Shown here piece after piece: positions 26,299-41,282 of a stretch of DNA of 64,000 bases (positions are counted from its first letter, which is position 1; every line of letters begins with the position of its first letter). The stretch is from an uncultured Gellertiella sp. (GTDB lineage Bacteria; Pseudomonadota; Alphaproteobacteria; Rhizobiales; Rhizobiaceae): NCBI RefSeq assembly GCF_963457605.1, contig NZ_OY735139.1:1364001-1428000 (forward strand). Direction: 5' to 3'. The notes below the pieces were generated by a model, which saw only the letters and a program-made list of their open reading frames with translations, was not told where the DNA came from and ran no database searches. The translations under genes were made by a program, and so were the position numbers.

Positions 26299-27930
26299 TC
26301 AGGACTCAAACCCCTCGCGGCGATAGACCTCGACACCGCCAAGCACCGTGAGCAACACTTCGGTCTTGCCGATCTCATAGACGTCGCAATCGAGGATATC
26401 CTGATCGATGATGATGAAATCGGCATATTTGCCGAGGCTGAGCGAGCCGCATTTTTCCGCGTTCCACGCCGCGCGCGCCGCATTGATCGTGTAGCCGCGC
26501 AGCGCCTCCTCGCGCGTCATGCGCTGCTCGGGCATCAGCACCGGATGGTGCGGCTCGCCCGGGGGCTGGCGGGTGATGGCGGTTTCCATGATCTGGAAAG
26601 GGTTCAGTGTCGAAACGCTCCAGTCGCTCGACAACGCGCAGGTTGCCCCGGCATCGATCAGCGACCGGTTGGCATAGATGTAACGCGAGCGTTCCGGCCC
26701 GATCATCGGCTGCACCATGTCGGTAATCGATGGCTCGACCTGGGCCCAGAGCGGCTGCAGGTTCGCCATCACGCCAAGTTCGAAGAAGCGCGGGATATCG
26801 GCGGGGTCGATGACCTGGACATGGGCGATCTGGTGAAGACCGGGCCACTGACCATTCTGGCGGCGTGCCGCCTCCATGCCGTCAAGCCCCGCCCGCACCG
26901 CCTCGTCGCCGATGGCATGGATATGCAGCTGGAATCGCGCCGCATCGAACAGCGGAAAGAATTCCATGATCTGCGCGCGGCTGAACATCAGCTCCGCATT
27001 GCCACCCTTCGCATCGGCATAGGGTTCGATCATCGCGGCGGTGCGGTTTTCGAACACGCCGTCGAGGAAGAATTTCGCCGAATGCACCTTGAACATGTCG
27101 GACTGATGGGCCGCCCGGATGGCCGATACCCGTTCGAGCGCTTGCGCCGGCACTTCGTTCGCATCGACACGCGCCGTCGCGGAGACACGCACCGTCAATT
27201 CACCGGCCTCTTCCAGCTGAGCATAGACCCGTGTGTGGCGTTCATAGACGCTGGCATCAAGCACCCCGGTAAAGCCGTGCCGGTTGGCCAGTTTCTGTCC
27301 ATGGCGCACGCCTTGCTGATAATCGGCATCGGTGAGCGCCGGCATCCGGTCGAGCGCCCAGAAGATCGCATCCTCATAGAGCAGGCCCGATGGGGTGCCG
27401 TCCGCTTCCTGCACGAAATGTCCGTTGGCGGGATCAGGGGTGCCCTTGATCAGGCCGATAACCTCACAGGCCCGTGTATTCAGGCAGGCATTGTGGCCGT
27501 CCGACGCCATGGTGAAACAGGGCCGGTCCGGCACGACCTGATCCAGCACATGACGGTTGAGATTGGCCGCGCCAAAATAGCCGCTGTTCCAGCCCGCCCC
27601 TTTCACCCATTCGCCCGGATTGGCCGCCGCATGGTCTGCCAGGGCGGCCTGCATTTCTTCAACCGTGGTGACCGACAGCAGGTCTGCCGAACAATAGTCC
27701 GCCTGCCCGCCTTCCAGCAGGTGGATATGGGTATCCTGAAAGCCCGGCAGCACCAGATTGCCCGCCGCATCGACGATCTGGGTCTGCGAATTGGCCATCA
27801 GCCGGAGATCGGCCCATTCGCCAAGCGCGATGATGCGCCCGTCTTTGACGGCCATTGCCTTGGCTTCCGGCAGGAAGGGGTCGATGGTGACAATACGGGC
27901 ATTGACGACGATCAGGTCGGCAAATGTCAT
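26299..27930 (-). CDS. Amidohydrolase family 3 protein (YtcJ-like)
   Basis: A 543-residue metal-dependent hydrolase of the YtcJ / N-substituted formamide deformylase group. Metal motifs are QDTHIHLLEG (about residue 64), HIHAIGDEAV (about 340) and IAHVQVIDP (about 370). Such enzymes hydrolyse N-formyl or other amide-protected amines. It lies 57 bp downstream of the flavin oxidoreductase on the same strand and closes the amine island; it could release an amine or acid from a formylated or amide intermediate. That role is inference. Confidence 0.82.
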   Translation of the reverse strand: MTFADLIVVNARIVTIDPFLPEAKAMAVKDGRIIALGEWADLRLMANSQTQIVDAAGNLVLPGFQDTHIHLLEGGQADYCSADLLSVTTVEEMQAALADHAAANPGEWVKGAGWNSGYFGAANLNRHVLDQVVPDRPCFTMASDGHNACLNTRACEVIGLIKGTPDPANGHFVQEADGTPSGLLYEDAIFWALDRMPALTDADYQQGVRHGQKLANRHGFTGVLDASVYERHTRVYAQLEEAGELTVRVSATARVDANEVPAQALERVSAIRAAHQSDMFKVHSAKFFLDGVFENRTAAMIEPYADAKGGNAELMFSRAQIMEFFPLFDAARFQLHIHAIGDEAVRAGLDGMEAARRQNGQWPGLHQIAHVQVIDPADIPRFFELGVMANLQPLWAQVEPSITDMVQPMIGPERSRYIYANRSLIDAGATCALSSDWSVSTLNPFQIMETAITRQPPGEPHHPVLMPEQRMTREEALRGYTINAARAAWNAEKCGSLSLGKYADFIIIDQDILDCDVYEIGKTEVLLTVLGGVEVYRREGFES

Positions 27931-27987
27931 GACAAACTCCTGAACAACCCCACATCCGGGTGGGAAACACTATTCGGCAAACAAGTA

Positions 27988-30006
27988 TCAGATAATGACA
28001 CGGTCCCGCCGGACTATCAGTTCGTCTGGTAAACGACCAAAGGCCCTTGCATGCTGATGGCCATCGAGAACCGCCTGCGCGATGATGCCGGGTGCCTTGC
28101 AATCGCCCATGCGGACCAGCGTTTTCAGCCCCTTGCCGTTGAGGTCGTGATAGAGTGCATCCTGCGGCTCGCGGCTGGTCACCGGCACGAAGGCGGCGCA
28201 GGGCAACTCCCGTTGGCGGCCACTATAGACGCATTGCAGCACCGCAGTCCCGTCCCCCAGCGCGCAGACCGTGGTGTTGACGATGATCTCGACGCCGAGT
28301 TCCAGAAGCCGCGTCTGGGAACGGGCCTGTTCGACGGTATTCTCGCCCCAGGACCCCACCACGCCGCGCGGTGTGACGAGGGTGACGGAAAAGCCTTCCG
28401 TCACCAGCCTTTCCGCCAGCACGGAGCCCATGTAATAGTGATCGTCGTCAAACAGCACCACCGGCCCCCGGGCAGGACGTTCGCCGCGCATCAGGTGGTC
28501 CGGCGAGATGGTACGGGGATCGTTGAAACTGTCGACAGGCCGCGCGAAGGAATGGCCGCGGCCGTCGGTGCGCCAGCTGGCCCCGGTGGCAATCATCACA
28601 TGCCCGATGCCGGTGTCGAGGATATCGGCAACACCCATGCGGCTCTCGCGGAAAATCTCGACATGCGGCAGTTTTTCGAGCTGGCCCACCCGCCAGTCGC
28701 GCACCCGCGCCCATTCGGACAGGCCGGGAAGCCGTGATTCCAGTGTGACACGGCCACCGAGATCGCGGTCGGCTTCTGCCAGCATCACCGGCACGCCAGC
28801 CTTGCCGAGCACCATCGCGGCCTCAAGTCCCGCTGGCCCCGCACCGATGATCAGCACCGGCTCCGGCACGGCAACCGCCGGAACATGTTCCGGATGCCAG
28901 CCGCGCCGCCATTCCTCGCCCATGGTAGGGTTCTGGGTGCAGCGGATGGCAACGCCAAGCGAATCCTGCGCATAGCAGATATTGCAGCCGATGCATTCGC
29001 GGATGTCGTCGAAGCGGCCTTCGCGGATTTTTTCCGGCAGGAAGGGATCGGCAATCGACGGACGGGCAGCACCGACCAGATCGAGCACCCCGCGCCGGAC
29101 CTGGGACAGCATGGTCTCCGGGCTGGTGAACCGGCCGACCGAGACCACCGGCTTGCCGGTGACCGCCCGGATATGGGCAATGTCGGCTTCCAGCGAGGCT
29201 TCCTTGACGAAGCGGGAAACGCCCATTTCCTGCGAATAGTCCGGCACCGTCACGTCGAACAGGTCGATCAGCGGGGCAAGCGTTTCGAGAAGGTGGGCGC
29301 GCTCGTCGCGGCCATGCCCGTCATCGTTCAGCGTCTCGATGCGGATGGCGATGGCGCAACGGTCGCCGATGGCGGCCCGCATGTCCTCCACCACCTCGCG
29401 CAGCAATCGCGACCGGTTGGCAAGCTCGCCACCATACTCATCCGTCCGGTTGTTGATCACCGGATCGAGAAATTGCGCCAGCATGTAGCTGTGGGCGGCA
29501 TAGGCATAGACGATGTCGAAATCCGCCTGCCGGGCCCGGCGCGCCGCCGCCAGGTGCCATTCGCGAAACTGCTGGATGTCGGCCCTGTCCATCCGCTGGC
29601 TTTGCCAGGGCGCATAGGAGGTCGGCATGCTTGTGGGCGCAAGGGCTGCCGAGCGCGAGGCGAGGTTGGAGGTCCGGATGCCGCCATACCAGAGTTCGAC
29701 GCCTGCCAGCGCGCCGTGGCGGTGCACGGCCTCTGTCATTCCGGAGAGATTTCGGACATCACCTTCGTCCCAGAGGCTTGCAAACGGATGCGGCATGTCG
29801 TCGGAAGAGGGATGAATCGAGCAATATTCGGTATTGACGACCCCCCAGCCGCCCTCGGCCTTGATCTCGCGCATCGCATTCAGCGTCGCCGGCATGCTGT
29901 AGCCCATGCCGGTACAATGCGGCACCTGATAGAAGCGGTTCGGCGTCGTGACGGGGCCAAGCCTGACGCTTTCAAACAGGATATCGAAACGGGGATCACG
30001 GGTCAT
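27988..30006 (-). CDS. TMADH/dimethylglycine-type FMN-[4Fe-4S]-FAD oxidoreductase
   Basis: A 672-residue Old Yellow Enzyme-type flavoprotein. Residues 1-340 form the FMN barrel; ECIGCNICYAQ plus a later cysteine in AIRCTQNP bind a [4Fe-4S] cluster; from about 385 a nucleotide-binding domain follows (VLIIGAGPAGLEAAMVLG). This is the layout of trimethylamine dehydrogenase, DgcA and the stachydrine/betaine demethylases, which oxidatively remove N-methyl groups, and also of 2,4-dienoyl-CoA reductase. Neighbouring Rieske, P450 and glutamine-synthetase-like genes support the amine demethylation reading. Confidence 0.85.
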   Translation of the reverse strand: MTRDPRFDILFESVRLGPVTTPNRFYQVPHCTGMGYSMPATLNAMREIKAEGGWGVVNTEYCSIHPSSDDMPHPFASLWDEGDVRNLSGMTEAVHRHGALAGVELWYGGIRTSNLASRSAALAPTSMPTSYAPWQSQRMDRADIQQFREWHLAAARRARQADFDIVYAYAAHSYMLAQFLDPVINNRTDEYGGELANRSRLLREVVEDMRAAIGDRCAIAIRIETLNDDGHGRDERAHLLETLAPLIDLFDVTVPDYSQEMGVSRFVKEASLEADIAHIRAVTGKPVVSVGRFTSPETMLSQVRRGVLDLVGAARPSIADPFLPEKIREGRFDDIRECIGCNICYAQDSLGVAIRCTQNPTMGEEWRRGWHPEHVPAVAVPEPVLIIGAGPAGLEAAMVLGKAGVPVMLAEADRDLGGRVTLESRLPGLSEWARVRDWRVGQLEKLPHVEIFRESRMGVADILDTGIGHVMIATGASWRTDGRGHSFARPVDSFNDPRTISPDHLMRGERPARGPVVLFDDDHYYMGSVLAERLVTEGFSVTLVTPRGVVGSWGENTVEQARSQTRLLELGVEIIVNTTVCALGDGTAVLQCVYSGRQRELPCAAFVPVTSREPQDALYHDLNGKGLKTLVRMGDCKAPGIIAQAVLDGHQHARAFGRLPDELIVRRDRVII

Positions 30007-30193
30007 CGGAACTGCTGCTTCTCGGGTGGTGTCAGGCTCACGTCAGCAGCGGAGGCTGGATCTGCAAGCGACGGAATGAAGGAGGCATCGCGTATGAAAC
30101 GGCCCGCCGACGGGTGTGTCTGCGGGCCGGGACGGAAAGCAACAGCGGGCGTTGCAGCCCACCCGAAGGCAAGCTGTCCGCCCCTTTGGCTGA

Positions 30194-31303
30194 TCAGGAA
30201 GCTGCCTTCACATCGGACCAGACGCGGGTGATGGCGCGGTCCTGTTCAGGGGTGAAGGGTGCCGGCGCCCACAGCCGCTTCATCACGGCCGCATCGGGAT
30301 AGACGGCTGGATTGGCGAGGATTTCCGGTTTGATGAATGCCTTCGACGCCAGATTGCCATTGGCATAGTTCGTCAGGTTGCTGCAGCTGGCAACGACTTC
30401 CGGCTGCAGCATGTATTCGAGGAACTTGTAGGCGCTTTCCTTGTTCGGTGCGTCCGTGGGGATGCACATGCAGTCGGCCCAGGCCGGTGCGCCGGTCTTT
30501 GGAACAAAGTAGCCGAGCTTGATGTCGATGCCGGCATCCTTGGCGCGGTTGCTGGCGGTCGAATAGTCACCCGACCAGTTGTTGATCGCGCAGAGTTCCT
30601 TGTTGGGGATCGCGTTCAGGTAATTGGTGTTGTCGAAGGTACGGATATATTTGCGGATCGGCTTGAACACCTGTGCCGCCTTTTCATAGTCCGCTTCGGT
30701 GGCATTGTCCGGATCGACGCCGACATATTTCAGCACCATCAGCAGGATATCGGTGGGACTGTCGAGGACCGAGATGCCGCAATCGTTGAGCTTGGCGGCA
30801 TTTTCTGGCTTGAAGATCGTGTCCATCGATTCAAGATCGGCGTCTGGCAGCCGTTGCTTGACCATGTCGAGATTATAGGTGAAGCCGACCGAGCCCCACA
30901 TGTAGGGAATGCCATATTCATTGTTCGGATCCCAGGAAGAAACGATCCGCAAGACGTCGGGGTCGAGATTGGACCAGCTTGGCAGTTTGGTGCGGTCGAG
31001 TTTCTCGTAAACGCCTGCCTGGATGAAGGTTGGCAGCGACAGGCCGGCATGCACGGCGACATCATATCCCGATTTGCCCGCCAGCATCTTGGCCTGCATT
31101 TCTTCAGCCGAACTGTAGGTGTCGTAGGACACCGTTATGCCGGTCTCCTGCTGAAAATCCTGAATGGTGGTTTCGCCGATATAATCGGCCCAGTTATAGA
31201 CGTTCAGCGCCTTGTCGTCGGCGCGGGCGCGCCGGACGAAGGGGGCACTGAGCGCCGTTGCCCCGATCAGGGTCAGCGCCGTGCGCCGGGTCATCGTGAT
31301 CAT
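30194..31303 (-). CDS. Polyamine-type ABC substrate-binding protein (PotF/PotD-like) 1
   Basis: A 369-residue periplasmic binding protein. A twin-arginine-like leader (TRRTALTLIGATALSAPFVRRARA) — given here as positions 5-28 in two halves, TRRTALTLIGAT and ALSAPFVRRARA — is followed by the family's mature start LNVYNWADYIGE and the ligand region IPYMWGSVGFTYN. GGAGG lies 6 bases before the start. It is a paralogue of the next gene upstream. No permease or ATPase gene is beside it, so it may dock onto the importer at the left edge of the window or onto one elsewhere. Confidence 0.9.
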   Translation of the reverse strand: MITMTRRTALTLIGATALSAPFVRRARADDKALNVYNWADYIGETTIQDFQQETGITVSYDTYSSAEEMQAKMLAGKSGYDVAVHAGLSLPTFIQAGVYEKLDRTKLPSWSNLDPDVLRIVSSWDPNNEYGIPYMWGSVGFTYNLDMVKQRLPDADLESMDTIFKPENAAKLNDCGISVLDSPTDILLMVLKYVGVDPDNATEADYEKAAQVFKPIRKYIRTFDNTNYLNAIPNKELCAINNWSGDYSTASNRAKDAGIDIKLGYFVPKTGAPAWADCMCIPTDAPNKESAYKFLEYMLQPEVVASCSNLTNYANGNLASKAFIKPEILANPAVYPDAAVMKRLWAPAPFTPEQDRAITRVWSDVKAAS

Positions 31304-31397
31304 GCCAAACCTCCTGGTTTTTGTTCCCTACTTTGCAGTCTTCCATCCCGCAGCATCTCTGCGGATGCTTGGCCGGGATGGCGTTTTCAGCACTGCG

Positions 31398-31431: not shown

Positions 31432-31445
31432 CAAGTCCACCGACA

Positions 31446-32555
31446 TCAGGACCCGGTCATGATCTTGGCCCAGGCGCGGGTGCGAAGGGAATCATATTCT
31501 GGTGATACATCCTTTGGCAACCACACCCTCTTCATGACCTCGGCATCGGGATAGACTGCGGTATTCTGCAAAATTTCCTTCTTGATCAACGACTTGGCAT
31601 CTTTGTTCGCATTCGCATAGGCCGTGTAGTCGGTGCATTTGGCGATGACTTCGGGCTGCAGCATATAATTGAGGAACGTGTGGGCTTCCTCGACATTCGG
31701 CGCATCTGTCGGGATGATGAAGGCATCGAGCCACAGGGTTCCGCCCGAATCCGGCACAACATAGCGCAGCTTGACGTCGAGGCCCGCCTCCTTGGCGCGC
31801 AGGCTGGCGCTGGCATAGTCGCCTGCCCAGTTGGTGGAGACACAGATTTCCTGGGTGGCAAGCTGCGCCGTATACTGGTTGTTGTCGAAGGAACGGATAT
31901 CCTTGCGCACCTTCATGAAAGCGTCGACGACCGCTTCGAGATCCTTCGGGTCTTCCGACAGCGGATCCTTGCCGAGATAGGCAAGCACCATCGGTATGAT
32001 CGTGCCGGGGCTGTCGATCATGTTGATGCCGCACCCCTGAAGCTTTTCGGCGATTTCCGGCTTGAACAGCATGTCGAAGGAGTTATACGGCGCTCCGGGT
32101 GCGTTCTTGTCCACCAGAGTGGTGTTATAGGTTACACCTGTCGTGCCCCACATGTAGGGCACCGCATGGGCATTGTCGGGATCGAGCTTGGCCAGGATCG
32201 CGAGCAGCGTCTCGTCGAGGTGACCCCAATTCGTCAGCTTGGACCTGTCCAGCGGCTTCATGATGCCCGCCCGGGCAAAACGCGGCAGGTTGCGCGACGC
32301 CGTTACCACCAGATCGTAGCCGCTGCTGCCGGCCATCAACTTGGCTTCGGCAGCTTCGGCGGAATCGTAGCTGTCATAAACAACCTTGATTCCCGAGGCC
32401 GCCTCGAAATCAGCCACCACGGTCTCGCCGATATAGTCTGCCCAATTGAACACATTCACCGTCCGCTCTGCGGCCCGTGCGCTGCGCAGGAACACCGGCG
32501 CCGCCAGTGCGGCGACGCCTGCCTGTAGAACCGTTCGTCTTGTCAGGCCTGTCAT
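31446..32555 (-). CDS. Polyamine-type ABC substrate-binding protein (PotF/PotD-like) 2
   Basis: A 369-residue paralogue of the preceding protein, with twin-arginine-like leader (LTRRTVLQAGVAALAAPVF), mature start VNVFNWADYIGE and VPYMWGTTGVTYN in the ligand cleft. ATG at 32555 is supported by GGGGAGG eight bases upstream; a longer open frame to 33125 only reflects the reverse side of the Rieske gene. It lies 38 bp downstream of the Rieske oxygenase, so it is probably co-transcribed with it and delivers the oxygenase substrate or a related amine. Confidence 0.9.
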   Translation of the reverse strand: MTGLTRRTVLQAGVAALAAPVFLRSARAAERTVNVFNWADYIGETVVADFEAASGIKVVYDSYDSAEAAEAKLMAGSSGYDLVVTASRNLPRFARAGIMKPLDRSKLTNWGHLDETLLAILAKLDPDNAHAVPYMWGTTGVTYNTTLVDKNAPGAPYNSFDMLFKPEIAEKLQGCGINMIDSPGTIIPMVLAYLGKDPLSEDPKDLEAVVDAFMKVRKDIRSFDNNQYTAQLATQEICVSTNWAGDYASASLRAKEAGLDVKLRYVVPDSGGTLWLDAFIIPTDAPNVEEAHTFLNYMLQPEVIAKCTDYTAYANANKDAKSLIKKEILQNTAVYPDAEVMKRVWLPKDVSPEYDSLRTRAWAKIMTGS

Positions 32556-32593: not shown

Positions 32594-33736
32594 TTACGCC
32601 AGTTGCTTCAAGACCCATTGCTGGAAGCGGTAAACGTCGAATTCCTGCGGCATCAGCGTGCCACCGGTGAAGGCGGCATTGCGCAGGCCGCGCTGGTTCA
32701 TCTCGGCGGCGTCGCCATCCTGCTTCAGCACCATCGTGGCGAAATCGACGACATTGTGAATGTCGAAACCCGGCTGGTTCAGAACCTCGGGCAGGAACAG
32801 CCATTCCGCGCACAGTTCGGTCTGCTCGGGGCTGATGGGCTTCAGCGACACGGCGCGGACATAATCCGGATGGGCAACGACGAACATCGTCGGCAGCATG
32901 GTGACAAAATGCAGGCCTGCATCGCGTTCCTTGTCGGTCAGACCGGGGAATACAGGGCCGCAGAGTTCGCCATTCATCGACCAGGTTGCAGCACCATCCT
33001 TCAGCGGCGTGCCCATGCCCTGTTCCGGCGTCCAGCCCGGGGCTTCGTTGGCAGCCATGTAGCCCTGGCTGTAGATCGGCACCATCTGCGACAGCTCCGG
33101 ATGGATGCCCGGGCAATGCAGGCATTCATTGTAGTTTTCCCAGAAGACCTTCCAGTTGCAGTTCATCACCTTGGTGAAGGTGTGGCCCGTCACCAGGTCC
33201 TTCATCGGCCAGTTGTCGAGATAGCCGGCACCGAGGTCGGGAACCTTGTTGAAGTCGGGCGCATCCGGGTCGACGCAGACATAGAGGAAACCGTTCCAGT
33301 CGCGCACATGCACCTTCAGCAGGCCATGCTCTTCCTTCTTGAAGTCGTCGGTGACGGAGACGAAGGGGGTGCGGACCAGTTCGCCAGTCAGCGCATAGCT
33401 CCACTGGTGGTAGGGGCAGCTGATCAGCTTGGATTTCAGGGTCTTTTCAGGCTCCGAGCACATTTCTGCGCCACGGTGGCGGCAGGTGTTGTAAAAGCCC
33501 GTGACCGCGCCGTCGCGGTCCTTGATCAGCATCAGGTTCTGGCCCGCCACCGAAATCTTGCGCACCGTGCTCGGCGGCAGGTCGTTGTTGCGACCGACAT
33601 AGACCCAGTTCTTCGCCCAGACATGCTTCAGTTCCTGCTGGTAGCGATCCTCGTCATAGTAATAACGTGCAGGCAAAGACGGCTTGCATTCATTCAGCAG
33701 GGGGGACGCGGGGTGGATCGTATGATTATGGCCCAT
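32594..33736 (-). CDS. Rieske non-haem iron oxygenase, alpha subunit (GbcA/Stc2/CntA-like)
   Basis: A 380-residue oxygenase. Rieske ligands are CRHRGAEM and CPYHQW near residues 85-110. The mononuclear iron site is in the ENYNECLHCPGIHPEL segment near residue 200. Size and motifs fit the single-component monooxygenases that N-demethylate or cleave quaternary amines (glycine betaine, stachydrine, carnitine). The usual reductase partner (GbcB-like) is missing; only a small ferredoxin lies upstream. Start MGHNHTIHP at 33736 replaces a 17-residue longer frame without family similarity. An operator-like dyad lies 220 bp upstream. Confidence 0.88.
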   Translation of the reverse strand: MGHNHTIHPASPLLNECKPSLPARYYYDEDRYQQELKHVWAKNWVYVGRNNDLPPSTVRKISVAGQNLMLIKDRDGAVTGFYNTCRHRGAEMCSEPEKTLKSKLISCPYHQWSYALTGELVRTPFVSVTDDFKKEEHGLLKVHVRDWNGFLYVCVDPDAPDFNKVPDLGAGYLDNWPMKDLVTGHTFTKVMNCNWKVFWENYNECLHCPGIHPELSQMVPIYSQGYMAANEAPGWTPEQGMGTPLKDGAATWSMNGELCGPVFPGLTDKERDAGLHFVTMLPTMFVVAHPDYVRAVSLKPISPEQTELCAEWLFLPEVLNQPGFDIHNVVDFATMVLKQDGDAAEMNQRGLRNAAFTGGTLMPQEFDVYRFQQWVLKQLA

Positions 33737-33956
33737 GACAAGGCTCCTTCTACCAGCAAAAACGACGGGAGAAAATGTAGCGGTCAAGCCCGCCCGTCAG
33801 CATCGTACCGACAGAACAGCGGATGGGGCGAACCTGACCGGGCACGCCATGGCGCACCAACCGGCCCCGGTTTCAGACCCATGCCCGCGCCGATGAGCGC
33901 GCGAAGCGACCCGGCAGACCTTTCGCAAACTCCCGTAAGCCTAGATTGAAGGAATT

Positions 33957-33972
33957 TTGACTGAACTGTCAA
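33957..33972 (-). promoter_or_regulatory. Dyad TTGAC-N6-GTCAA before the Rieske gene (candidate promoter/operator)
   Basis: The 380-bp gap between Rieske and ferredoxin genes holds a perfect 5-bp dyad in an AT-rich stretch. On the minus strand its arm reads TTGACA, a good -35 hexamer, directed at the Rieske gene. The remaining gap towards 33737 shows no gene. Confidence 0.4.
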
Positions 33973-34056
33973 TTAATATATTCGGCGCACCGGATTTTTT
34001 TGAAACCCTTGGAATTTCAGTCACCAGCACGGGAAAACCCGCAGGCCGGACACGCG

Positions 34057-34086
34057 AAAAGAGCCGGCCCCGCAGCGGACCGGCTC
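34057..34086 (-). terminator. Rho-independent terminator of the ferredoxin operon
   Basis: GAGCCGG (34061-34067) pairs with CCGGCTC (34080-34086), with further pairing inside, followed on the minus strand by TTTT. It closes the P450-ligase-ferredoxin transcript and separates it from the Rieske transcript. Confidence 0.8.
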
Positions 34087-34116
34087 TCGATAATCGATAA
34101 TTTGACGCGCATCAAT

Positions 34117-34431
34117 TCACGCCGGAACGTGGAGCACCAGACCATTCAGCTCGGCGGAGGCGATGATCTGGCAACTGAGCCGGCTTTCGGCCTTGCGCGG
34201 CGCATCGGTGGCGTCGAGGATCGCATCCTCGGTTGCATCCGGCGCACCGGCCTTCTCCGTCCATGCGGGATCGACATAGACATGGCAGGTCGCGCAGGAG
34301 AGGCACCCCCCGCATTCGCCGATGATCCCCGGCACATTGTGCTGGGCGGCGGCATTCATCAGGTTGTTGCCATCGGCAACTTCGGCGGTGATCCGGGTTC
34401 CGTCATGCAGGATCCAGGTGATTTCAGACAT
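34117..34431 (-). CDS. Adrenodoxin-type [2Fe-2S] ferredoxin
   Basis: A 104-residue ferredoxin with cluster ligands C40, C46, C49 (GECGGCLSCATCHVYVD) and C87 (RLSCQII), the C-x5-C-x2-C...C spacing of adrenodoxin/putidaredoxin proteins that feed electrons to P450s and some oxygenases. An additional cysteine, C43, lies between the ligands. It follows the glutamine-synthetase-like gene by 23 bp and ends the operon started by a P450. No ferredoxin reductase is encoded in the island, so it must share a housekeeping one. Confidence 0.92.
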   Translation of the reverse strand: MSEITWILHDGTRITAEVADGNNLMNAAAQHNVPGIIGECGGCLSCATCHVYVDPAWTEKAGAPDATEDAILDATDAPRKAESRLSCQIIASAELNGLVLHVPA

Positions 34432-34454
34432 GTAACGATCCTCTTTCAGCCGTG

Positions 34455-35732
34455 TCAGATATAGGGAAGATAGAAATCGCGCAGCGCCTCGCCTTCGAGC
34501 TCCGCCGCCTTGGTGATCTCGTCGCGCTTGATGAAGATGTGGTTTTCGCAAAGCAGACGCCCGACCGCGTCCATCAGCGGCATGTCCGCCTCCAGCGCAT
34601 CCAGCGCCCCGCCCAGATTGTCCGGCACCCCGTCCTTTGCATCGATGGCTTCGAAACAGTCGCCGGTCTCCGCTGGCGGCAGGGGATATTTGTCGACATA
34701 GCCGAGGCGGGCGGCCTGCAGCACGGTTGCCACCAGAGTATAGGGATTGGCCGCGCCATCGCCCATCCGGTGTTCGATGCGGGCCTTCGGGCCGCGCTCT
34801 GCCGAAATGCGGGTGGTAACACCGCGATGGTCTCCACCCCAGTTGCGCCAGTAGCCGCTGAGTGCTGCGGGTTTCAGCCGCTGATAGGAGTTGACGGTCG
34901 GAGCGACCAGCGCCGCCATCGCCTGATGATGGTGCATCAGCCCGGCAATGCAGCCCTCGGCAACCGGGCTCAGCCGGTCGGGCTCGCCCACCGCATTGTT
35001 GCCGTCGCGGTCGCGGAAGGAGAAATTGACATGCAGCCCGCTGCCGCCCTTCGACAGGATCGGCTTCGGCAGGAAGGTCAGCACGATGCCATGCTCCAGC
35101 GCCACTTCCCGCGCCAGCTGGCGGAACAGGAAGATGTCGTCCACCGCCTTCAGCGCATGATCGAAGGTCAGGGTGAACTCGAACTGCGGCGTGTCGAATT
35201 CTGATGTGGCGGAATCGATGGCAAACCCGAGTTCGCTCGCCCGGTCCCAGACCGCTTCGGTAAAGCCTGCGGGATCGGCGAAGGGGCCGGTCGAATAGAC
35301 ATAGGCCTTCGGCGTCTCGTAGGGCACGAGCGAACCGTCTTCCCGCTGCTGGAAGGCGAAGCATTCCAGCTCCAGCCCGACCATCGGGTCAAAGCCCAGC
35401 GCCTGCCAGTCGGCAATCGCCCGTTTCAGCGCCTGGCGGCCACAGGCCCCGAAGGGCTTGCCGTCTTCGTGGAGGTCGCCGACCACCACCTTGGTATCGG
35501 GATACCAGCTGTCGCGGATATCTTCGGCGCGATAGCGGATTTCCACATCCGGCAGGCCTTCCAGAACCTTTGATCCCGGAGCCGGGATCAGGTCCTTGTC
35601 ATAGGTCACGCCAAAGGTGCCCTGGCAGATGCGGGTCGCCCCGCCCGATGCCTTTTTCAGCGGCAGATACTTGCCGCGCGCAAGGTTCAAGTGGTCACAG
35701 AACAACACCCGGAGGCGCTCGTTGGTCATCAA
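34455..35732 (-). CDS. Glutamine-synthetase-like gamma-glutamyl amine ligase
   Basis: A 425-residue type III glutamine synthetase homologue. Active-site segments are VGLELECFAF (about residue 118), GSGLHVNFSF (about 233) and HRGVTTRISAERGP with EHRMGDGAANPY (about 305-330). Members such as PuuA, IpuC and GlnT ligate glutamate to putrescine, isopropylamine or other amines using ATP. Its place between a P450 and a ferredoxin, with an amidotransferase-fold gene divergent nearby, suggests gamma-glutamylation of an amine released or imported here. Ordinary glutamine synthesis is unlikely in this context. Confidence 0.85.
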   Translation of the reverse strand: MMTNERLRVLFCDHLNLARGKYLPLKKASGGATRICQGTFGVTYDKDLIPAPGSKVLEGLPDVEIRYRAEDIRDSWYPDTKVVVGDLHEDGKPFGACGRQALKRAIADWQALGFDPMVGLELECFAFQQREDGSLVPYETPKAYVYSTGPFADPAGFTEAVWDRASELGFAIDSATSEFDTPQFEFTLTFDHALKAVDDIFLFRQLAREVALEHGIVLTFLPKPILSKGGSGLHVNFSFRDRDGNNAVGEPDRLSPVAEGCIAGLMHHHQAMAALVAPTVNSYQRLKPAALSGYWRNWGGDHRGVTTRISAERGPKARIEHRMGDGAANPYTLVATVLQAARLGYVDKYPLPPAETGDCFEAIDAKDGVPDNLGGALDALEADMPLMDAVGRLLCENHIFIKRDEITKAAELEGEALRDFYLPYI

Positions 35733-35762
35733 TGTTCCTCCCAGAACGGCAGACGGGAATTC

Positions 35763-37025
35763 CTATTGCAGGCTGATGCGGACCGGCAGCGACTTGATGC
35801 CGCCGACGATGTTTGAGCGCAGGAAGGCATGCGGCGCAATCTGCTCGATCGACTTTATGCGTTTCGCGAGTTCCTGGAACAGCAGCCGCACTTCAAGCCG
35901 CGCCAGCCACATGCCGAGGCAGACATGCGCGCCCCCCTGGCCGAAGGACAGATGCCGGTTGGGGGTGCGGCGAAAATCGACGGTCATCGGAGCATCGAAG
36001 GCCGTTTCATCGCGGTTGCCGGAGACGAACCAGAACAGCACCTTGTCGCCTTCGCGCACCGTCTTGCCATGCATGTCGAAATCCCGGGTCGCGGTGCGGC
36101 GGAAATACATGGCGGGCGAGGCCCAGCGGATCACCTCGTCGGGCATGGTCTCCCAGATTGCGGCATCGCCGGACTTGAGATCGGCAAGCAGTCCCGGCTG
36201 GTTGGCCAGCGCATGCAGGCCTGCGGCAATCGAATAGCGGGTCGTGTCATTGCCGGCGGCCACCAGCAGGCAGAAGAAATTGCGGAACTCGGTTTCCGAA
36301 ATCACGTTGCCTTCCGCATCCGGCCTGGTGATCAGGCTGAGAATGCCGCTGTCATCACCCCGCCGCCGCTTGTCTTCCATCAGCCGCTTGGCATAATCGA
36401 AAAGATCGGCTCCGGCGGGCGAGCGGAACGGCATCAGCCGGTAGGCATCCGTATCGGTCTTGTCGAGCACGTGCTCGGTGAATTCCGGGTCGGTATTGGC
36501 AATCAGCGCATCGCCGCGCTCCACCAGCCAGTCGAGATCCTCGTCCGGCGTGCCGATGATCTGGCCAAGCATCCGCATCGGCAATTGCCGGGCAATGGTC
36601 TTCACCGCATCGAACTCGCGGGTCTCAAGCGTCTGGTCGAGGATTTCGTCGCAGAGCCTGCGGATCTGCTCTTCGAAAAGCGCAATCACCGGCCTCGAAA
36701 AGGCCTTGGCCACCAGAGTGCGCACCCGCGTATGTTCCGGCGGATCGGTCTCCTGAAAGGTCCGGCGGGCCAGATATTCCTCATAGGTCTGGTCTTCCAT
36801 CCGGATGCCGCGCGCCGAACTCAACAGCTTGTTGTCGCGGTTAAGCTCCATGATGTCGGCATGGCGGGTCACCGACCAGAAACCCTTGCCACCGGCATAA
36901 TCGCACCAGGCCAGCGGATCTTCCCTTCGCAGCCGGGCAAAGGTGTTGTGCGGCGCCCCCTGCTCGAACGTGTCATGGCTGGAAAGATCGGCACGGCCAT
37001 CATCCAAAGGCGTCCAGACTGTCAT
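35763..37025 (-). CDS. Cytochrome P450 (first of two)
   Basis: A 420-residue soluble bacterial P450. The haem cysteine is in FGQGGAHVCLGMWLARLE, the I-helix oxygen-activating motif is AAGNDTTR with the normal acid-alcohol pair, and the ExxR motif is EVIRW. It heads the operon P450, glutamyl ligase, ferredoxin (gaps 30 and 23 bp) and is divergent from the amidotransferase gene. A 20-bp palindrome in the shared promoter also occurs before the permease gene. It probably hydroxylates an N-alkyl or ring carbon of an amine. Confidence 0.92.
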   Translation of the reverse strand: MTVWTPLDDGRADLSSHDTFEQGAPHNTFARLRREDPLAWCDYAGGKGFWSVTRHADIMELNRDNKLLSSARGIRMEDQTYEEYLARRTFQETDPPEHTRVRTLVAKAFSRPVIALFEEQIRRLCDEILDQTLETREFDAVKTIARQLPMRMLGQIIGTPDEDLDWLVERGDALIANTDPEFTEHVLDKTDTDAYRLMPFRSPAGADLFDYAKRLMEDKRRRGDDSGILSLITRPDAEGNVISETEFRNFFCLLVAAGNDTTRYSIAAGLHALANQPGLLADLKSGDAAIWETMPDEVIRWASPAMYFRRTATRDFDMHGKTVREGDKVLFWFVSGNRDETAFDAPMTVDFRRTPNRHLSFGQGGAHVCLGMWLARLEVRLLFQELAKRIKSIEQIAPHAFLRSNIVGGIKSLPVRISLQ

Positions 37026-37057
37026 CGCATCCTCCCTCGCTTGACCATTGCGGGAAA

Positions 37058-37077
37058 ATAGAACACATGTTAAGTAT
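37058..37077. promoter_or_regulatory. 20-bp palindromic operator, site 1 (P450/amidotransferase promoter)
   Basis: Sequence fits ATAGnnCACATGTTAAnTAT, centred on ACATGT, in the 113-bp gap between the divergent P450 and amidotransferase genes. It matches 17 of 20 bases with the site at 41382-41401. A GntR/FCD regulator gene close by is the obvious candidate to bind it. Confidence 0.65.
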
Positions 37078-37138
37078 ATTTACAAGTGTCATATGCACAC
37101 AAAAACCAGTCAAACCGCATGCAAAGGGGAAAAGGAAT

Positions 37139-37855
37139 ATGGCGCGCTCTATCGGCATTCTGCTGACCAGCAACGACCAATCGGAATTCGCGCAACGGTT
37201 CGACCATGATGGCGAGCGCTTTGCAGACCTGCTGTCGCCCCTGCGCCCCGACTGGAGCTTCACCACCATCCCCGCCAAGGACGACGTTTTTCCCGACAGT
37301 CCCGATGCCTATGACGGCTATATCATCACCGGCAGCCCGGCTTCGGTCCAGGGCAATGATCCCTGGATCCTGCATCTCCTCGATTTCATCAGGGACGTCG
37401 AGGCAAGGCGCATTCCGCTGTTCGGGGCCTGTTTCGGCCATCAGGCGATTGCGCTGGCGCTGGGTGGCGCGGTGCAGCATTGCAACAAAGGCTGGGGTCT
37501 CGGGACGTCGATGACCCATTTCACCCGGTTTGCGCCCTGGATGCAGCCGGAAAGGCGCGATGTCAGGCTCTATTCCGCCCATGAGGAACAGGTGACGCGC
37601 CTGCCCGACGGGGCCGAACTTCTGGGCGGCGACGATTTCTGTCCCATCGGGTCGTTCCGTATTGCAGACCATGTCTTCACCACCGAATTTCATCCGGAAA
37701 TGACGCCGGCCTTCATCAGCGGACTGGTCGATTATCTCGAGGACCATCTCGACAGCACCACCATTTCGCGCGCCCGCGACACCCTGCAGCATCCGGCGGA
37801 AGGGGCGGAATTTGCCCGCTGGATGGCAAATTTCCTGGATGGCACGAAGCCCTGA
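37139..37855 (+). CDS. Class I glutamine amidotransferase-fold hydrolase
   Basis: A 238-residue type 1 amidotransferase domain. The nucleophile cysteine is in LFGACFGHQAIA (about residue 99) and the histidine-glutamate pair in TTEFHPEM. There is no synthase domain, so it should act as a free gamma-glutamyl hydrolase or transferase. Paired with the glutamine-synthetase-like ligase it parallels PuuA/PuuD, where the hydrolase removes glutamate at the end of the pathway, though PuuD itself has GACRG rather than GACFG. Start 37139 follows AAAGG; an in-frame extension to 37067 lies in the promoter. Confidence 0.85.
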   Translation: MARSIGILLTSNDQSEFAQRFDHDGERFADLLSPLRPDWSFTTIPAKDDVFPDSPDAYDGYIITGSPASVQGNDPWILHLLDFIRDVEARRIPLFGACFGHQAIALALGGAVQHCNKGWGLGTSMTHFTRFAPWMQPERRDVRLYSAHEEQVTRLPDGAELLGGDDFCPIGSFRIADHVFTTEFHPEMTPAFISGLVDYLEDHLDSTTISRARDTLQHPAEGAEFARWMANFLDGTKP

Positions 37856-37864
37856 TCAGGGCTT
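37847..37864. other. Perfect 18-bp palindrome carrying two back-to-back stop codons
   Basis: AAGCCCTGATCAGGGCTT spans the junction of the convergent amidotransferase and GntR genes. Each strand's TGA stop lies in its centre, so the two genes abut with no spacer. It may act as a minimal bidirectional terminator. Confidence 0.6.
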
Positions 37865-38512
37865 GAACAGCACCGCCAGCAGATCCATCGCCGTGACGCT
37901 GTCAAAGGTGACGTGGTTGACCATCAGCTTTTCGGCAGCGTCTGAATCCCGGTCGAGGATCAGCGCGGCAATCTCGCGGTGTTCTTTCGCCGACTTGCCG
38001 ATGCTGCCCTTGTAGCGATAACGCGCCCGGTAATAGGCGAGCAGCTTGCGGCCATTGGTGCGGATCATGTCAAGCAGCACCGGATTGTGGGCGGCAAGTG
38101 CAATGGTGCGGTGGAAATCGAGATTGTGCTGGTAATAGGCGTCTGGCAGGCTGTCGCCAAGGGTTGCGACATGGGCGTCGCAGGCCGCGCAGGCCTTTTC
38201 CAGCGCTTCCGCATCTGCCCGCGACAGACGCCGGGCGGCAAGGGCTGCGGCATGGCCTTCGAGCTTGCCATGCACTTCGAGGATCGCCAGAAACTCCTCC
38301 AGCGTCGGGCGGAACACCTCCGCTCCGCCCCGCGCCTTGCGCTTCAGGATACCGACGGCATCAAGCTGCAAAAGTGCTTCGCGCACCGGCGTCCGCGACA
38401 CGCCGAAGGTGCTGACCAGTGCCTTCTCCTCGATCACATCGCCGGGATTGAAACGCCCATCCTCGATCCCGCGCACGATATGGTCGACAATGATATCCGT
38501 CTGATTCCCCAT
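37856..38512 (-). CDS. GntR/FCD family transcriptional regulator
   Basis: A 218-residue regulator. The N-terminal winged helix (residues 5-70) has ALVSTFGVSRTPVREALLQL, the classic GntR recognition segment, and the C-terminal all-helical FCD domain shows the metal-ligand histidine in DFHRTIALAAHN. The start MGNQTD at 38512 is chosen because the longer frame runs into the neighbouring P450 stop. It is the only regulator in the amine island, ends against the amidotransferase and follows the second P450 by 52 bp. Confidence 0.92.
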   Translation of the reverse strand: MGNQTDIIVDHIVRGIEDGRFNPGDVIEEKALVSTFGVSRTPVREALLQLDAVGILKRKARGGAEVFRPTLEEFLAILEVHGKLEGHAAALAARRLSRADAEALEKACAACDAHVATLGDSLPDAYYQHNLDFHRTIALAAHNPVLLDMIRTNGRKLLAYYRARYRYKGSIGKSAKEHREIAALILDRDSDAAEKLMVNHVTFDSVTAMDLLAVLFKP

Positions 38513-38523
38513 GCCCCATCCTA

Positions 38524-38550
38524 TGTATTTTCCCGGACCATGGGAATATA
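38524..38550 (-). promoter_or_regulatory. Inverted repeat before the GntR gene (candidate autoregulatory site)
   Basis: GTATTTTCCC (38524-38533) and GGGAATATAC (38541-38550) form 10-bp arms with one mismatch and a 7-base loop in the 52-bp gap upstream of the regulator. It could be an operator or the end of the upstream P450 message. Confidence 0.45.
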
Positions 38551-38564
38551 CACGAAAACAGGTA

Positions 38565-39746
38565 TTATCGCAGCAACACATGAAGATGCTGCGGTGCACG
38601 GAATTCCCATCCGCCGAACACCGGCGGCAGGGAGGGATCGAGGGTCAGCGAGGGATAGCGGGCCAGCAGCACCGACAGCATGATCTCGATCTGCGCCTTT
38701 GCAAACCATTTTCCCGCACAGAAGTGGCCGCCGAAGCCGAACGTGGCGATGGACGGTCGATCCCGGTGGATATCGAAGCGATCCGGATCGGCAAAGCGCT
38801 GTTCGTCCCGATTGGCGGAAGCGAGGATCGCCGCCACCGGCGCCCCCTTCGGTATGACCACGCCGCCAAGCTCGACATCACGGGTGGCAATCCGCATTTG
38901 CGTGCCGATTGGCGCGACCCAGCGCAGGCCCTCTTCGACGGCGCGGGCAAGCAATGTTTCGGGAGCGGCGAGCAGTTCGGAAAACTGGGCGGGCTCACCA
39001 AGCAATCCGGCCAATACGCTGCCTGCGCCATGGCCGGGCTCCTGCATGCCGCCAAGCAGGGTGACCTTGATCGTCGGCAGCACCATTTCCGGACTGCGCG
39101 GATTTCCAGGCTCGCGCCCGTGATGCAACAATGCCGACAGGGGCGAGGCGTCGGGCGACGTCAACCGCGCCTCCAGGAGTGGAACAAGGGCCGCATCGAT
39201 CTCGCCACAGACGGCATCGCAAATCGCCTGGCGGGCCGGATCGCATTCATAGTTGATCGCCCCCTGCGACAGACCGTGGAACCAGTGCCGGAGCGTGTCC
39301 ACATCCACATCGTGAAATCCGAAGGAGCGGGCAAGGCTGAGCACCGAGACCGGTTCGAAATAATCGGCCATCAGTTCGGCGCTGTCACGACCTTCCAGCC
39401 TTGCCAATTGTGCTTCGGCAAGCGGCCTCACCAGCGGTTCCACCCAGGACTGCACCTGCTTCGGGCGGTAATGCGGCTCGATGCCACCCCTGAGTTCGCG
39501 ATGCACGCCGCCATCGACCGTCAGGATCGTCGGCCTGCCGAAGGAAATCTCGACCGGAGAGGTCGGCGCTTCGGCGGAAAACAGGTCCGGTGACTTGGTC
39601 ACCGCCTCGACATCCGGCCAGCGCGTGGCAAACCAGACATTGGCGGCAGGCACATGGGCGACCGGCTGCTCCCGCCGCAAATGCGCATAGAAGGGATAGG
39701 GATCGGCCTCCAGTTCGCCAATGGTGATCGTCTCAGCCCAGGTCAT
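38565..39746 (-). CDS. Cytochrome P450 (second), atypical I-helix
   Basis: A 393-residue P450 with haem motif FGFGGHFCAGKWFAKAQ and ExxR motif EGLRW. In the I-helix the usual acid-alcohol pair is replaced: GGMQEPGHG instead of AGxxT-like sequence, so the proton-relay threonine is a proline. Such proteins may use another relay residue or different oxygen chemistry. Start MTWAET at 39746 is preferred to a 17-residue longer frame. It lies between the permease and the GntR regulator and is well diverged from the first P450, so the two probably act on different steps. Confidence 0.9.
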   Translation of the reverse strand: MTWAETITIGELEADPYPFYAHLRREQPVAHVPAANVWFATRWPDVEAVTKSPDLFSAEAPTSPVEISFGRPTILTVDGGVHRELRGGIEPHYRPKQVQSWVEPLVRPLAEAQLARLEGRDSAELMADYFEPVSVLSLARSFGFHDVDVDTLRHWFHGLSQGAINYECDPARQAICDAVCGEIDAALVPLLEARLTSPDASPLSALLHHGREPGNPRSPEMVLPTIKVTLLGGMQEPGHGAGSVLAGLLGEPAQFSELLAAPETLLARAVEEGLRWVAPIGTQMRIATRDVELGGVVIPKGAPVAAILASANRDEQRFADPDRFDIHRDRPSIATFGFGGHFCAGKWFAKAQIEIMLSVLLARYPSLTLDPSLPPVFGGWEFRAPQHLHVLLR

Positions 39747-39830
39747 GTCGTTTCCCCTCCTCCTGCATGTGAAAAGGCCCGGCCATGCCTGAGGCATGCC
39801 GGGCCGGATTGCGGTTCGATTTGCGTGGCC

Positions 39831-41282
39831 TTACTCGAATGAACCGGAGCCCATCCGGTCGAACCGGCCCCGGTCGCGCGCGGCAAGCCGCGACGACAGG
39901 ATGAAGCCGATGACGGCGGCGACCAGCACCAGCGACGGCAGGATGACGCCGAGCGAACCGACAGCACCGGTGAGAACGCCGAACTGCGAGAAGATGTAGA
40001 AGAACAGATAGACGAGGATCAGCCCGACGATGGTGGGCAGGACCTTGGTGACGACGGGATTTTCGCCCATGTCGCCGTTGCGGACGAAGAAGCCGATGAC
40101 CGCAAAGGAGGTCAGCGCCATCAGGCCGAGGATGCCGAGCGTGCCGAGCTGGGTGAGCCAGGTGAACATCGCCAGCACCGGATCGAGCTGCAGATAGGCA
40201 AACAGCGCCACCACCGCGACGGCGATCACCGTCTGGATCATCGAACCGACATGCGGGCTCTGGAACCGGTCATGGGTAACGCCGACGCTGTCCGGCAGGA
40301 TGCCTTCCCGGCCGGCCACATATTTGTAGCGGGCAACGCCATTGTGGAAGGCGAGAACGGCGGCAAACAGGCTCGAGACGAACAGGAAGCCCATGATGGT
40401 CGGAACGGGACCGCCGACGTAGCGACCGGCGAGATCAAACAGGAAGGTCGTCGGATCTTTCAGGCCCTGAAGCGTCGGCATCAGCTTGTCGATCCCCGCA
40501 CCATCGGCCATCAGCCAGGCGGTGATCATGTAGAACACTCCGATCAGCACCACCGAAATATAGGTGGCGCGCGGTACGGTCTTTTCCGGCTCGCGGGCTT
40601 CTTCCGAATAGATGGTGGTCGCTTCAAAGCCGATGAAGGCGGCAAAGCAGAACAGGATGCCGATGGCCGGCGTGCCGCTCATCACCTGCGAGGCGCTGAA
40701 GGGCGCCAGCGACAGGCCGGCATCGCCGCCCTTCAGAAAGATCGCGCCATCGATCAGCAGCACGATGACATATTCGAGCAGCACCAGAACCATCAGGATC
40801 CTGGCCGACAGGTCGACCTGCCGGTAGCCAAGCACTGCGACGATGGCAACCGCGATCAGCGACCAGCCATACCAGGGAATGTCCAGGTGAATCAGCGGAT
40901 TGAACGTGCCGCTGGCCGCCGCGCCGAGCAGGCCGAGAATGCCGATCTGCATGGCGTTGTAGCTAAGGATGGCGATGAGGGCTGCGGCACCGCCGAGATG
41001 ACCGCCAAGGCCGCGGGCGGTATAGGCGTAGAAGGCGCCGGCATTCTTCACATGCCGCGCCATGGCGACATAGCCGACGGCAAACAGCAGCAGAACGATG
41101 GTGACAAGGGCAAACGAGCCCGCAATGCCCGCACCATTGCCGAGCAGCATGCTGATCGGCACACCGCCCGCAACCGCAGTCAGCGGGGCCGCAGCCGAAA
41201 TGACCAGAAAGGTCACAGCCCCTACCCCGAGACTGTTCTTGCGAAGCTGGTTGGTGCCAGCTTCCGATGACGTAGAAGCCAT
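39831..41282 (-). CDS. APC-superfamily amine/amino-acid permease (PuuP-like)
   Basis: A 483-residue transporter with twelve hydrophobic helices and the APC N-terminal pattern SLGVGAVTFLVISAAAPLTA. Helix 6 carries the CFAAFIGFEATTIYSEEARE segment typical of amine and amino-acid permeases. GGAGGA precedes ATG at 41282. It is the first gene of the permease, P450, GntR transcript, and the second 20-bp palindrome lies about 100 bp upstream. It most likely imports the amine handled by the island. Confidence 0.9.
   Translation of the reverse strand: MASTSSEAGTNQLRKNSLGVGAVTFLVISAAAPLTAVAGGVPISMLLGNGAGIAGSFALVTIVLLLFAVGYVAMARHVKNAGAFYAYTARGLGGHLGGAAALIAILSYNAMQIGILGLLGAAASGTFNPLIHLDIPWYGWSLIAVAIVAVLGYRQVDLSARILMVLVLLEYVIVLLIDGAIFLKGGDAGLSLAPFSASQVMSGTPAIGILFCFAAFIGFEATTIYSEEAREPEKTVPRATYISVVLIGVFYMITAWLMADGAGIDKLMPTLQGLKDPTTFLFDLAGRYVGGPVPTIMGFLFVSSLFAAVLAFHNGVARYKYVAGREGILPDSVGVTHDRFQSPHVGSMIQTVIAVAVVALFAYLQLDPVLAMFTWLTQLGTLGILGLMALTSFAVIGFFVRNGDMGENPVVTKVLPTIVGLILVYLFFYIFSQFGVLTGAVGSLGVILPSLVLVAAVIGFILSSRLAARDRGRFDRMGSGSFE

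Follow-up and report, generated by a model that had tools for sequence, protein, structure and literature searches.

Does the oxygenase-rich island of an uncultured Gellertiella sp. encode one pathway for an amine, or have two neighbouring pathways been read as one? The window analysed here is a stretch of 64,000 nucleotides (contig NZ_OY735139.1, C2:1364001-1428000) from a genome of 4.17 Mb. Positions 26299-41282 carry 12 genes that the initial annotation joined into a single pathway for the oxidation of an N-alkylated or cyclic amine. Open frames were found for all 12, and Pfam, NCBIfam and PDB searches bore out the families named for them. The two cytochromes P450, here P450a and P450b, do differ, with GcoA-type chains among the best PDB hits of the first and CYP125/126/124-type chains among those of the second. 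It is also correct that nearly all genes lie on one strand: 11 of the 12 are on the minus strand, and the amidotransferase alone, which separates the regulator from P450b, is on the plus strand. A single joint pathway was not supported. The stretch is more likely composed of two neighbouring catabolic sets, module A (34117-41282), which contains P450b and a glutamine-synthetase (GS)-like ligase, and module B (26299-33736), which contains a Rieske oxygenase and a flavoprotein. Judged from sequence, the balance tips slightly towards module A being the upper part of an arylethylamine pathway and module B being a separate set for N-methylated amines.

Gene content of the island

The features are listed by their positions in the window, with the evidence for each. 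The Pfam scan covered ten proteins, without P450a and the permease, and the NCBIfam scan covered ten proteins including these two.

26299..27930, minus strand: amidohydrolase family 3, module B (Pfam, NCBIfam; a 47% identical homologue lies near a Rieske homologue in Fuscovulum, L101)
27988..30006, minus strand: histamine/trimethylamine-dehydrogenase-type flavoprotein, module B (NCBIfam, PDB sequence search)
30194..31303, minus strand: PotF-like binding protein 1, SBP_bac_8, module B (Pfam, NCBIfam)
31446..32555, minus strand: extracellular binding protein 2, SBP_bac_8, same family as binding protein 1, module B (Pfam)
32594..33736, longest frame from 33787, minus strand: Rieske oxygenase alpha subunit, module B (Pfam, NCBIfam, PDB search)
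33737..34116, no strand: 380-base stretch between the modules, no called gene (codon-model gene calling)
34117..34434, minus strand: 2Fe-2S ferredoxin, Fer2, probable P450 redox partner, module A (Pfam, NCBIfam)
34455..35732, minus strand: GS-like ligase, Gln-synt_C, putative gamma-glutamylamine synthetase, module A (Pfam, NCBIfam, PDB search)
35763..37025, minus strand: P450b, conserved core oxygenase, module A (PDB search, locus survey)
about 37139..37855, longest frame from 37067, plus strand: divergent class I glutamine amidotransferase (GATase)-like protein, putative gamma-glutamyl-amide hydrolase, module A (Pfam, NCBIfam)
37856..38512, minus strand: GntR/FCD regulator, module A (Pfam; same protein cluster in 42 of 84 loci)
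38565..39746, minus strand: P450a, GcoA/CYP255A-like, relative of aromatic O-demethylases, module A (PDB search, motif)
39831..41282, minus strand: APC-type permease, module A (weak NCBIfam matches; homologues near P450a elsewhere)

Genes of exopolysaccharide type flank the island at 21881-26194 and 41495-44062. Their translations, read by eye, resemble O-antigen polymerase, Wzz, NDP-sugar epimerase and sugar transferase, and the island seems to lie within an exopolysaccharide region.

Conservation of the P450b neighbourhood

The GTDB genome set was scanned with an alignment of five P450b proteins at a loose tblastn limit (E 1e-3), giving 437 relatives. For the best 80 of these (69-92% identity), P450b and as much as 10 kb of flanking sequence in either direction were examined. 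Together with three plasmid loci they make up 83 comparison loci, or 84 with the window. Gene content was taken from a codon-model caller and then from protein clusters, and gene presence in the 83 loci was counted by tblastn (E 1e-10, 40% coverage). The stretch downstream of P450b reaches at least 9.4 kb in 70 of these loci and at least 3.5 kb in 75. The clusters overlooked the amidotransferase in L024 and L077, and tblastn recovered both. L014 is the same contig as L021 and was omitted from the 83- and 84-locus counts. Among the loci, L011 is closely related to L013, and the three Gellertiella-type genomes are nearly copies of one another.

Module A is strongly conserved around P450b. The ligase is found in 81 of the 83 other loci, the amidotransferase in 75 and the ferredoxin in 64. 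In all 82 loci that hold both genes, the ligase lies within 300 bp of P450b on the same strand. The two loci counted without a ligase are L082, which stops at P450b, and L041, which has a 255-codon frame. This frame (L041:1844-2608, from a metagenome-assembled genome, MAG) aligns with the GS-like ligase at its two ends only, with 64-67% identity, and is either a deletion or an assembly fault.

Module B does not follow. No flavoprotein and no amidohydrolase was detected in any of the 83 loci; a Rieske gene is found in one, at 28% identity, and a PotF-like gene in one (L016). The conserved neighbourhood that had been expected across related genomes therefore fails for the whole set and stands for P450b, ligase, ferredoxin and amidotransferase. 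The three nearest genomes point the same way: flanks shared with the window enclose permease, GntR regulator, amidotransferase, P450b, ligase and ferredoxin, and between these flanks Rieske, flavoprotein, amidohydrolase and P450a genes are absent. Moreover, in 18 whole genomes that carry module A, Rieske relatives are found in 12 (E 1e-30), at identities no higher than 38%. A single pathway of 12 genes was rejected as the main reading because the genes of module B are nearly absent from other P450b loci. The apparent uniqueness of the island resulted from reading two modules as one.

About 380 bases without a called gene lie between the ferredoxin and Rieske genes. By consensus match only, this gap holds one minus-strand promoter-like site, against a chance expectation of 0.2, and two sites that resemble terminators, against 0.6. 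There is no sharp break in base composition at the border, which neither supports nor excludes an insertion. Module B, which stands beside module A in this lineage, was probably inserted locally.

Core enzymes of module A

The nearest relatives of P450b belong to Gellertiella hungarica (92% identity) and two uncultured Rhizobium MAGs (90 and 84%). Of 296 further genomes sampled from the order, a single one has a close relative of the ligase. Pattern scans showed intact P450 cysteine-ligand and ExxR motifs and an intact ferredoxin Cx5Cx2C motif. The amidotransferase has the GATase motif GxCxGHQ, as do all 74 of 74 clustered members, and it scores 49.4 bits with GATase and 20.5 bits with Peptidase_C26, the latter at its cut-off (E 4.6e-4). 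For the ligase, membership in the gamma-glutamylputrescine synthetases (NF045547) was rejected, with a score of 174.6 bits under a curated cut-off of 650. NCBIfam matches of the permease to APC-type models are far under their cut-offs, the best being 63 bits for a cut-off of 690. Amine catabolism with gamma-glutamylation as a handle, proposed by the initial annotation, remains plausible for this set of enzymes.

Three further families are linked to P450b in the 84 loci: a class III aminotransferase (47), a Tm-1-like protein (39) and a HAD protein (36).

More distant sets of GS-like ligase, amidotransferase and P450 are found in Sagittula (L150:6926-10233) and Novosphingobium (L152:7201-10221), where the P450 is 38% identical. 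In Sagittula, the ligase (25%), amidotransferase (32%) and P450 (38%) lie among genes annotated for aromatic degradation. These triads suggest a wider family of such sets. In addition, a Limnohabitans-type module A is found in a record titled Akkermansia muciniphila (L032). In the P450b tree it groups as the sister of a Burkholderiales row, and its presence in this MAG probably reflects faulty binning.

Association with aromatic degradation

The substrate of module A is probably aromatic, because of the GcoA-like P450a, ring-cleavage genes at 23 of 84 loci, an aromatic decarboxylase at 17 of 84, a Streptomyces plasmid set and a homoprotocatechuate (Hpa) locus elsewhere in the genome of the window.

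Genes for arylacetate ring cleavage and aromatic decarboxylation were scored at each locus, and at least two are present at the 23. By gene, the decarboxylase is found at 17 loci, HpaG-like at 14, LigB/HpaD-like at 11 and HmgA at 9. The best solved relatives of the decarboxylase are DOPA and aromatic amino acid decarboxylases. Three types of ring cleavage occur near P450b: homoprotocatechuate; homogentisate, with an MhpA-like hydroxylase and a DUF2783 protein; and LigB with an ADC-like protein. The aromatic label changes five times on the P450b tree, compared with a mean of 20.4 when it is shuffled. With midpoint rooting, Novosphingobium, Dongia-type loci and one gammaproteobacterial row, all bearing the association, branch first.

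A plasmid of Streptomyces canus carries homologues of several module A-linked families, namely ligase (32%), P450 (39%), reductase (34%), LigB (54%), aldehyde dehydrogenase (64%), ADC-like (64%) and FAH (34%). Its small annotated ferredoxin gave no match to the ferredoxin of the window. Embleya has GS-like, P450 and ADC-like homologues.

For P450a, the PDB search ranked 8u09 first, an entry titled only Cytochrome P450 (E 3e-84), with GcoA chains next (5ncb, E 2e-82). The usual border of a CYP family is 40% identity. P450a is 40.5% identical to a Dietzia homologue that lies beside catA, and it shares the QEPGHG motif with GcoA-type enzymes. By hand count, P450a has alanine at GcoA position 169, which passages of one study describe as the most common CYP255A residue there (PMC6628648). 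The same passages report that T296 of GcoA clashes with C4 substituents (PMC6628648). By hand alignment, the residues of P450a at about 295/296 differ and one is missing. No GcoB-type reductase gene adjoins P450a in the window, and none is annotated at the Rhizobium acidisoli locus (L100); in Dietzia (L103), the gene next to the P450 is about 340 codons long and encodes a 2Fe-2S protein.

Relatives of P450a at 55-60% identity form a subgroup. Six Dongia-type loci hold such a relative with an adjoining permease homologue, near P450b and ring-cleavage genes. In R. acidisoli, the relative is accompanied by a permease (68%), aldehyde dehydrogenase (71%), aminotransferase (51%), HAD (68%) and Tm-1-like protein (55%), with an HpaB-like gene of 4-hydroxyphenylacetate 3-hydroxylase type nearby. 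A phosphotransferase gene and two aminotransferase-family genes also lie beside the HAD/Tm-1-like genes at this locus (L100:2295-7867), near the P450a and HpaB-type genes, possibly a kinase/phospholyase route for beta-hydroxylated arylethylamines.

The homoprotocatechuate locus on C2

A second locus in the genome of the window, at about C2:2252291-2270000, encodes homologues of proteins linked to P450b elsewhere: aldehyde dehydrogenase (70%), IclR (38%), Tm-1-like (53%), HAD (65%) and aminotransferase (53%). It also encodes HpaI, HpaH, HpaD, HpaE, HpaG-like and HpaF-like proteins and an HpaB-family protein. Four of these pass their curated cut-offs: HpaD (414.5 bits, cut-off 321.4), HpaE (770.5, 638.35), HpaH (420, 351.5) and HpaI (371.1, 368.8). 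The HpaF-like (44%) and HpaG-like (65%) proteins resemble their linked homologues, and neither matched an NCBIfam model at the limit of E 1e-60. The HAD and Tm-1-like families thus recur in both module A loci and this locus. The three nearest genomes hold the Hpa set with aminotransferase and HAD genes, and two of the three stretches also hold Tm-1-like.

Near C2:2141212 is the gene of a decarboxylase that shares 64% identity with the linked family, and C1 carries an HmgA gene. In another genome (L087), a decarboxylase relative (59%) is beside HpaD and HpaE homologues. The only LigB-family gene of the genome was considered as the ring-cleavage enzyme and set aside; no linked pathway genes surround it, and HpaD at C2:2261602 fits better.

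A proposed pathway and its alternatives

From gene content, linkage, homology and co-occurrence, the following substrates, order of reactions and regulation are proposed for module A. Candidate substrates are phenethylamine, tyramine, dopamine or an O-methylated form such as 3-methoxytyramine. The permease would import the amine or its parent amino acid, and P450a would O-demethylate (or hydroxylate) the ring. Glutamate would be coupled to the amine by the GS-like ligase, and P450b, with electrons from the ferredoxin, would then oxidise the gamma-glutamyl-amide, with ring hydroxylation favoured. The amidotransferase-like enzyme would free the glutamate and return excess amide. The product would become an arylacetate by the action of an omega-aminotransferase and an aldehyde dehydrogenase, after which the ring would be cleaved. 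Candidates for these last steps are the aldehyde dehydrogenase, aminotransferase, hpaD, hpaE, hpaH, hpaI and hpaG-, hpaF- and hpaB-like genes at C2 about 2.252-2.270 Mb. The GntR/FCD protein would regulate module A. Tentatively, gamma-glutamylation may serve as a reversible tag, such that P450b hydroxylates only the tagged arylethylamine and the amidotransferase removes the tag. This order of tagging, ring hydroxylation, untagging, transamination and oxidation is favoured because the amidotransferase is present at 75 of 83 loci and the aminotransferase at 47 of 84.

Several observations weigh against the arylethylamine reading. The island itself has no ring-cleavage, decarboxylase or aminotransferase gene. 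The four-member P450b clade of the window has no adjacent scored aromatic genes, and none are found in a betaproteobacterial clade of 35 rows. These betaproteobacterial loci carry aldehyde dehydrogenase, aminotransferase, Tm-1-like and HAD genes instead, and their versions of module A may act on another substrate. P450a relatives occur without P450b, as in R. acidisoli. Under ring hydroxylation, the paaABCD genes beside the module in Ruegeria TM1040 would be unneeded, and the HpaB-like hydroxylase encoded in the genome of the window may make such a role of P450b redundant. Moreover, the amidotransferase and the linked-family aminotransferase are missing from the fetched stretches of the Dongia-type, Novosphingobium EMRT-2 and Streptomyces loci.

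A control on HpaD counts in part for the arylethylamine reading. Among the 61 loci without adjacent scored genes, 21 genomes, picked by the authors and not at random and sorted into groups from record titles, were searched, and 10 have HpaD above its cut-off. These are 6 of 6 alphaproteobacteria outside the Rhodobacterales and 4 of 7 Rhodobacterales; three Rhodobacterales and all eight betaproteobacteria (0 of 8) lack it. The background in the window's order, a poor fit for Rhodobacterales, is 33 of 249 genomes with the genome of the window included. For 6 of 6 compared with 32 of 248, Fisher's test gives p 7.9e-6, or 3.6e-4 when near-copies are collapsed to 4 lineages.

In a serious rival, judged rather unlikely, P450b hydroxylates the carbon beside the amide nitrogen. 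This would yield glutamine and an arylacetaldehyde for an aldehyde dehydrogenase to finish, with P450b replacing the flavin oxidase of the Puu pathway. Such side-chain attack would suit a single P450b family that stands beside Hpa, Hmg and LigB/ADC types and, in TM1040, paa genes. For the aldehyde dehydrogenase linked in L081, PuuC is the top-scoring NCBIfam model (564 bits, cut-off 850). The rival stays serious because the Dongia-type and Streptomyces versions show neither amidotransferase nor aminotransferase nearby, as is also the case in Novosphingobium EMRT-2. However, it would leave the amidotransferase (75 of 83) and the class III aminotransferase (47 of 84) redundant.

A joint role of both modules in the degradation of an N- and O-methylated phenethylamine alkaloid, of the hordenine or candicine type, is improbable. 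In this scheme, the Rieske enzyme and flavoprotein would strip N-methyl groups, P450a the O-methyl group, and the ligase and P450b would take the bare amine. The modules are adjacent and on the same strand in the window, and P450a is O-demethylase-like. In addition, MttB-like, aminomethyltransferase and amine-oxidase-like genes accompany relatives of module B genes in L127, and in L101 and L102 such relatives have aminomethyltransferase and oxidoreductase genes for neighbours. Yet the flavoprotein and amidohydrolase are absent from the 83 other P450b loci and only one has a distant Rieske gene, Rieske relatives reach at most 38% in the 18 module A genomes, a gap of about 380 bases parts the modules, and no Rieske reductase or ATP-binding cassette (ABC) permease gene was called in the island.

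It is very unlikely that module A degrades a cyclic secondary amine such as piperidine, pyrrolidine or morpholine in the manner of PipA/MorA. A GntR regulator is reportedly part of a cyclic-amine P450 system (Poupin, in 1999). According to passages of PMC9477822, systems for these amines combine P450, ferredoxin and GS-like genes, but the aromatic-pathway genes near P450b at 23 of 84 loci would have no role. A Puu-like polyamine route, with a P450 replacing PuuB and PotF-like proteins feeding it, would draw on the PotF-like proteins next door and a PotF-type transporter set close to the Hpa locus, and is highly doubtful given the ligase score (174.6 bits, cut-off 650) and a PotF-like gene at only 1 of 83 other P450b loci.

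Module B

The best solved relative of the flavoprotein is a histamine dehydrogenase (645 bits), with trimethylamine dehydrogenase (TMADH) at 528 bits. Both matches are near full-length, and a QVPHC motif, which has a role in flavinylation, is found at residue 27. The near full-length match and the motif place the protein in the histamine/trimethylamine dehydrogenase family. The Rieske protein scores 179 bits with the GbcA model (NF058607), and GbcA membership was rejected since the curated cut-off is 670. The plasmid homologues listed for it are 28.7-30.9% identical, with one at 45%. Binding protein 1 is PotF-like by NCBIfam and has a 74% identical homologue in L016. The N-demethylation chemistry first proposed for the island is plausible for its Rieske and flavoprotein part. 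Of the substrates suggested there, an N-alkylated amine, betaine, cyclic amine or polyamine would suit module B at best; for module A, the ring-cleavage genes and O-demethylase-like P450 speak against them.

Eight of 384 other genomes from the class have Rieske relatives (36-54%). In L127, the flavoprotein (53%) and Rieske (54%) genes are adjacent. The same neighbourhood includes genes for MttB-like, amine-oxidase-like and aminomethyltransferase proteins, for an aminotransferase and for a binding protein of weak similarity (25%). Fuscovulum (L101) has a Rieske gene (45%), a PotF-like protein (55%) with transporter genes and an amidohydrolase (47%). Parasedimentitalea (L102) has a flavoprotein (55%) with a distant Rieske (22-26%) and binding-protein, transporter and aminomethyltransferase genes. 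Module B is thus probably a separate set for N-methylated amines.

Other findings count against module B as a unit. The flavoprotein is found in only one of the eight Rieske neighbourhoods (L127), and the other seven, one of them only 5.7 kb, have no further module B gene. Flavoprotein relatives also occur elsewhere in 10 of the 18 module A genomes (43-60%), twice more in the genome of the window (49%) and alone at L135. The coherence of module B is only partly supported, and its gene set is loosely conserved.

A PotF-like protein 64% identical to binding protein 1 is encoded with ATPase and permease genes at C2 about 2.2464-2.2504 Mb (L141:6358-10439), some 2 kb from the aldehyde dehydrogenase/aminotransferase/Hpa locus. 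This set may supply the transporter for the orphan binding proteins of the window.

Known systems and significance

The genes of aerobic aniline oxidation are of the AtdA1-A5 or Tdn type. According to passages of PMC7500099, this process handles an aromatic amine by way of its gamma-glutamyl amide, with a GS-like ligase, an enzyme of GATase type and an oxygenase. The view that no described pathway joins the enzymes of the island therefore does not apply to this combination. Module A resembles the aniline system in the linkage of a GS-like ligase to a GATase-like hydrolase (81 and 75 of 83 loci). Its conserved oxygenase, however, is not an aniline dioxygenase but a P450, accompanied at most loci by a 2Fe-2S ferredoxin. 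A Rieske relative was found at one of 83 loci (28%), and the Rieske protein of the window belongs to module B. The lower pathways linked to module A are of the homoprotocatechuate or homogentisate type rather than catechol.

The Puu pathway proceeds by gamma-glutamylation, oxidation and hydrolysis. Module A differs in a ligase under the PuuA-type cut-off, a hydrolase closer to GATase than to Peptidase_C26 and the lack of a flavin oxidase. P450a is like GcoA/CYP255A in its PDB hits, QEPGHG motif and alanine at 169 (hand count), and unlike it in having no adjacent GcoB-type reductase and in the residues at about 295/296. With PipA/MorA, module A has in common the presence of P450, ferredoxin and GS-like genes in one locus (passages of PMC9477822); part of the module A loci differ in their linkage to decarboxylase and ring-cleavage genes. 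Betaine/carnitine-type Rieske enzymes and TMADH/histamine dehydrogenase are among the best model and PDB matches of the module B enzymes, with the Rieske protein below the GbcA cut-off (179 bits for 670). Module A is classed here as a variant, with a P450, of the known scheme of GS-like, GATase-like and oxygenase enzymes, and module B is composed of distant members of known enzyme families. Searches of the open PubMed Central literature listed no paper on the P450-ligase set with arylethylamines or aromatic amines, nor a described function for the set.

If the tag scheme is true, it would be the P450 counterpart of the aniline system, found in Alpha-, Beta- and Gammaproteobacteria, with a distant version in Streptomyces, and would feed more than one route of ring cleavage. 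If P450b acts on glutamate-tagged arylethylamines, module A would give freshwater, marine and root-associated bacteria an upper route for biogenic and plant amines. Moreover, the O-demethylase-like P450 would link the catabolism of amines with that of methoxy-aromatics, and a P450 that accepts tagged amines would be on offer.

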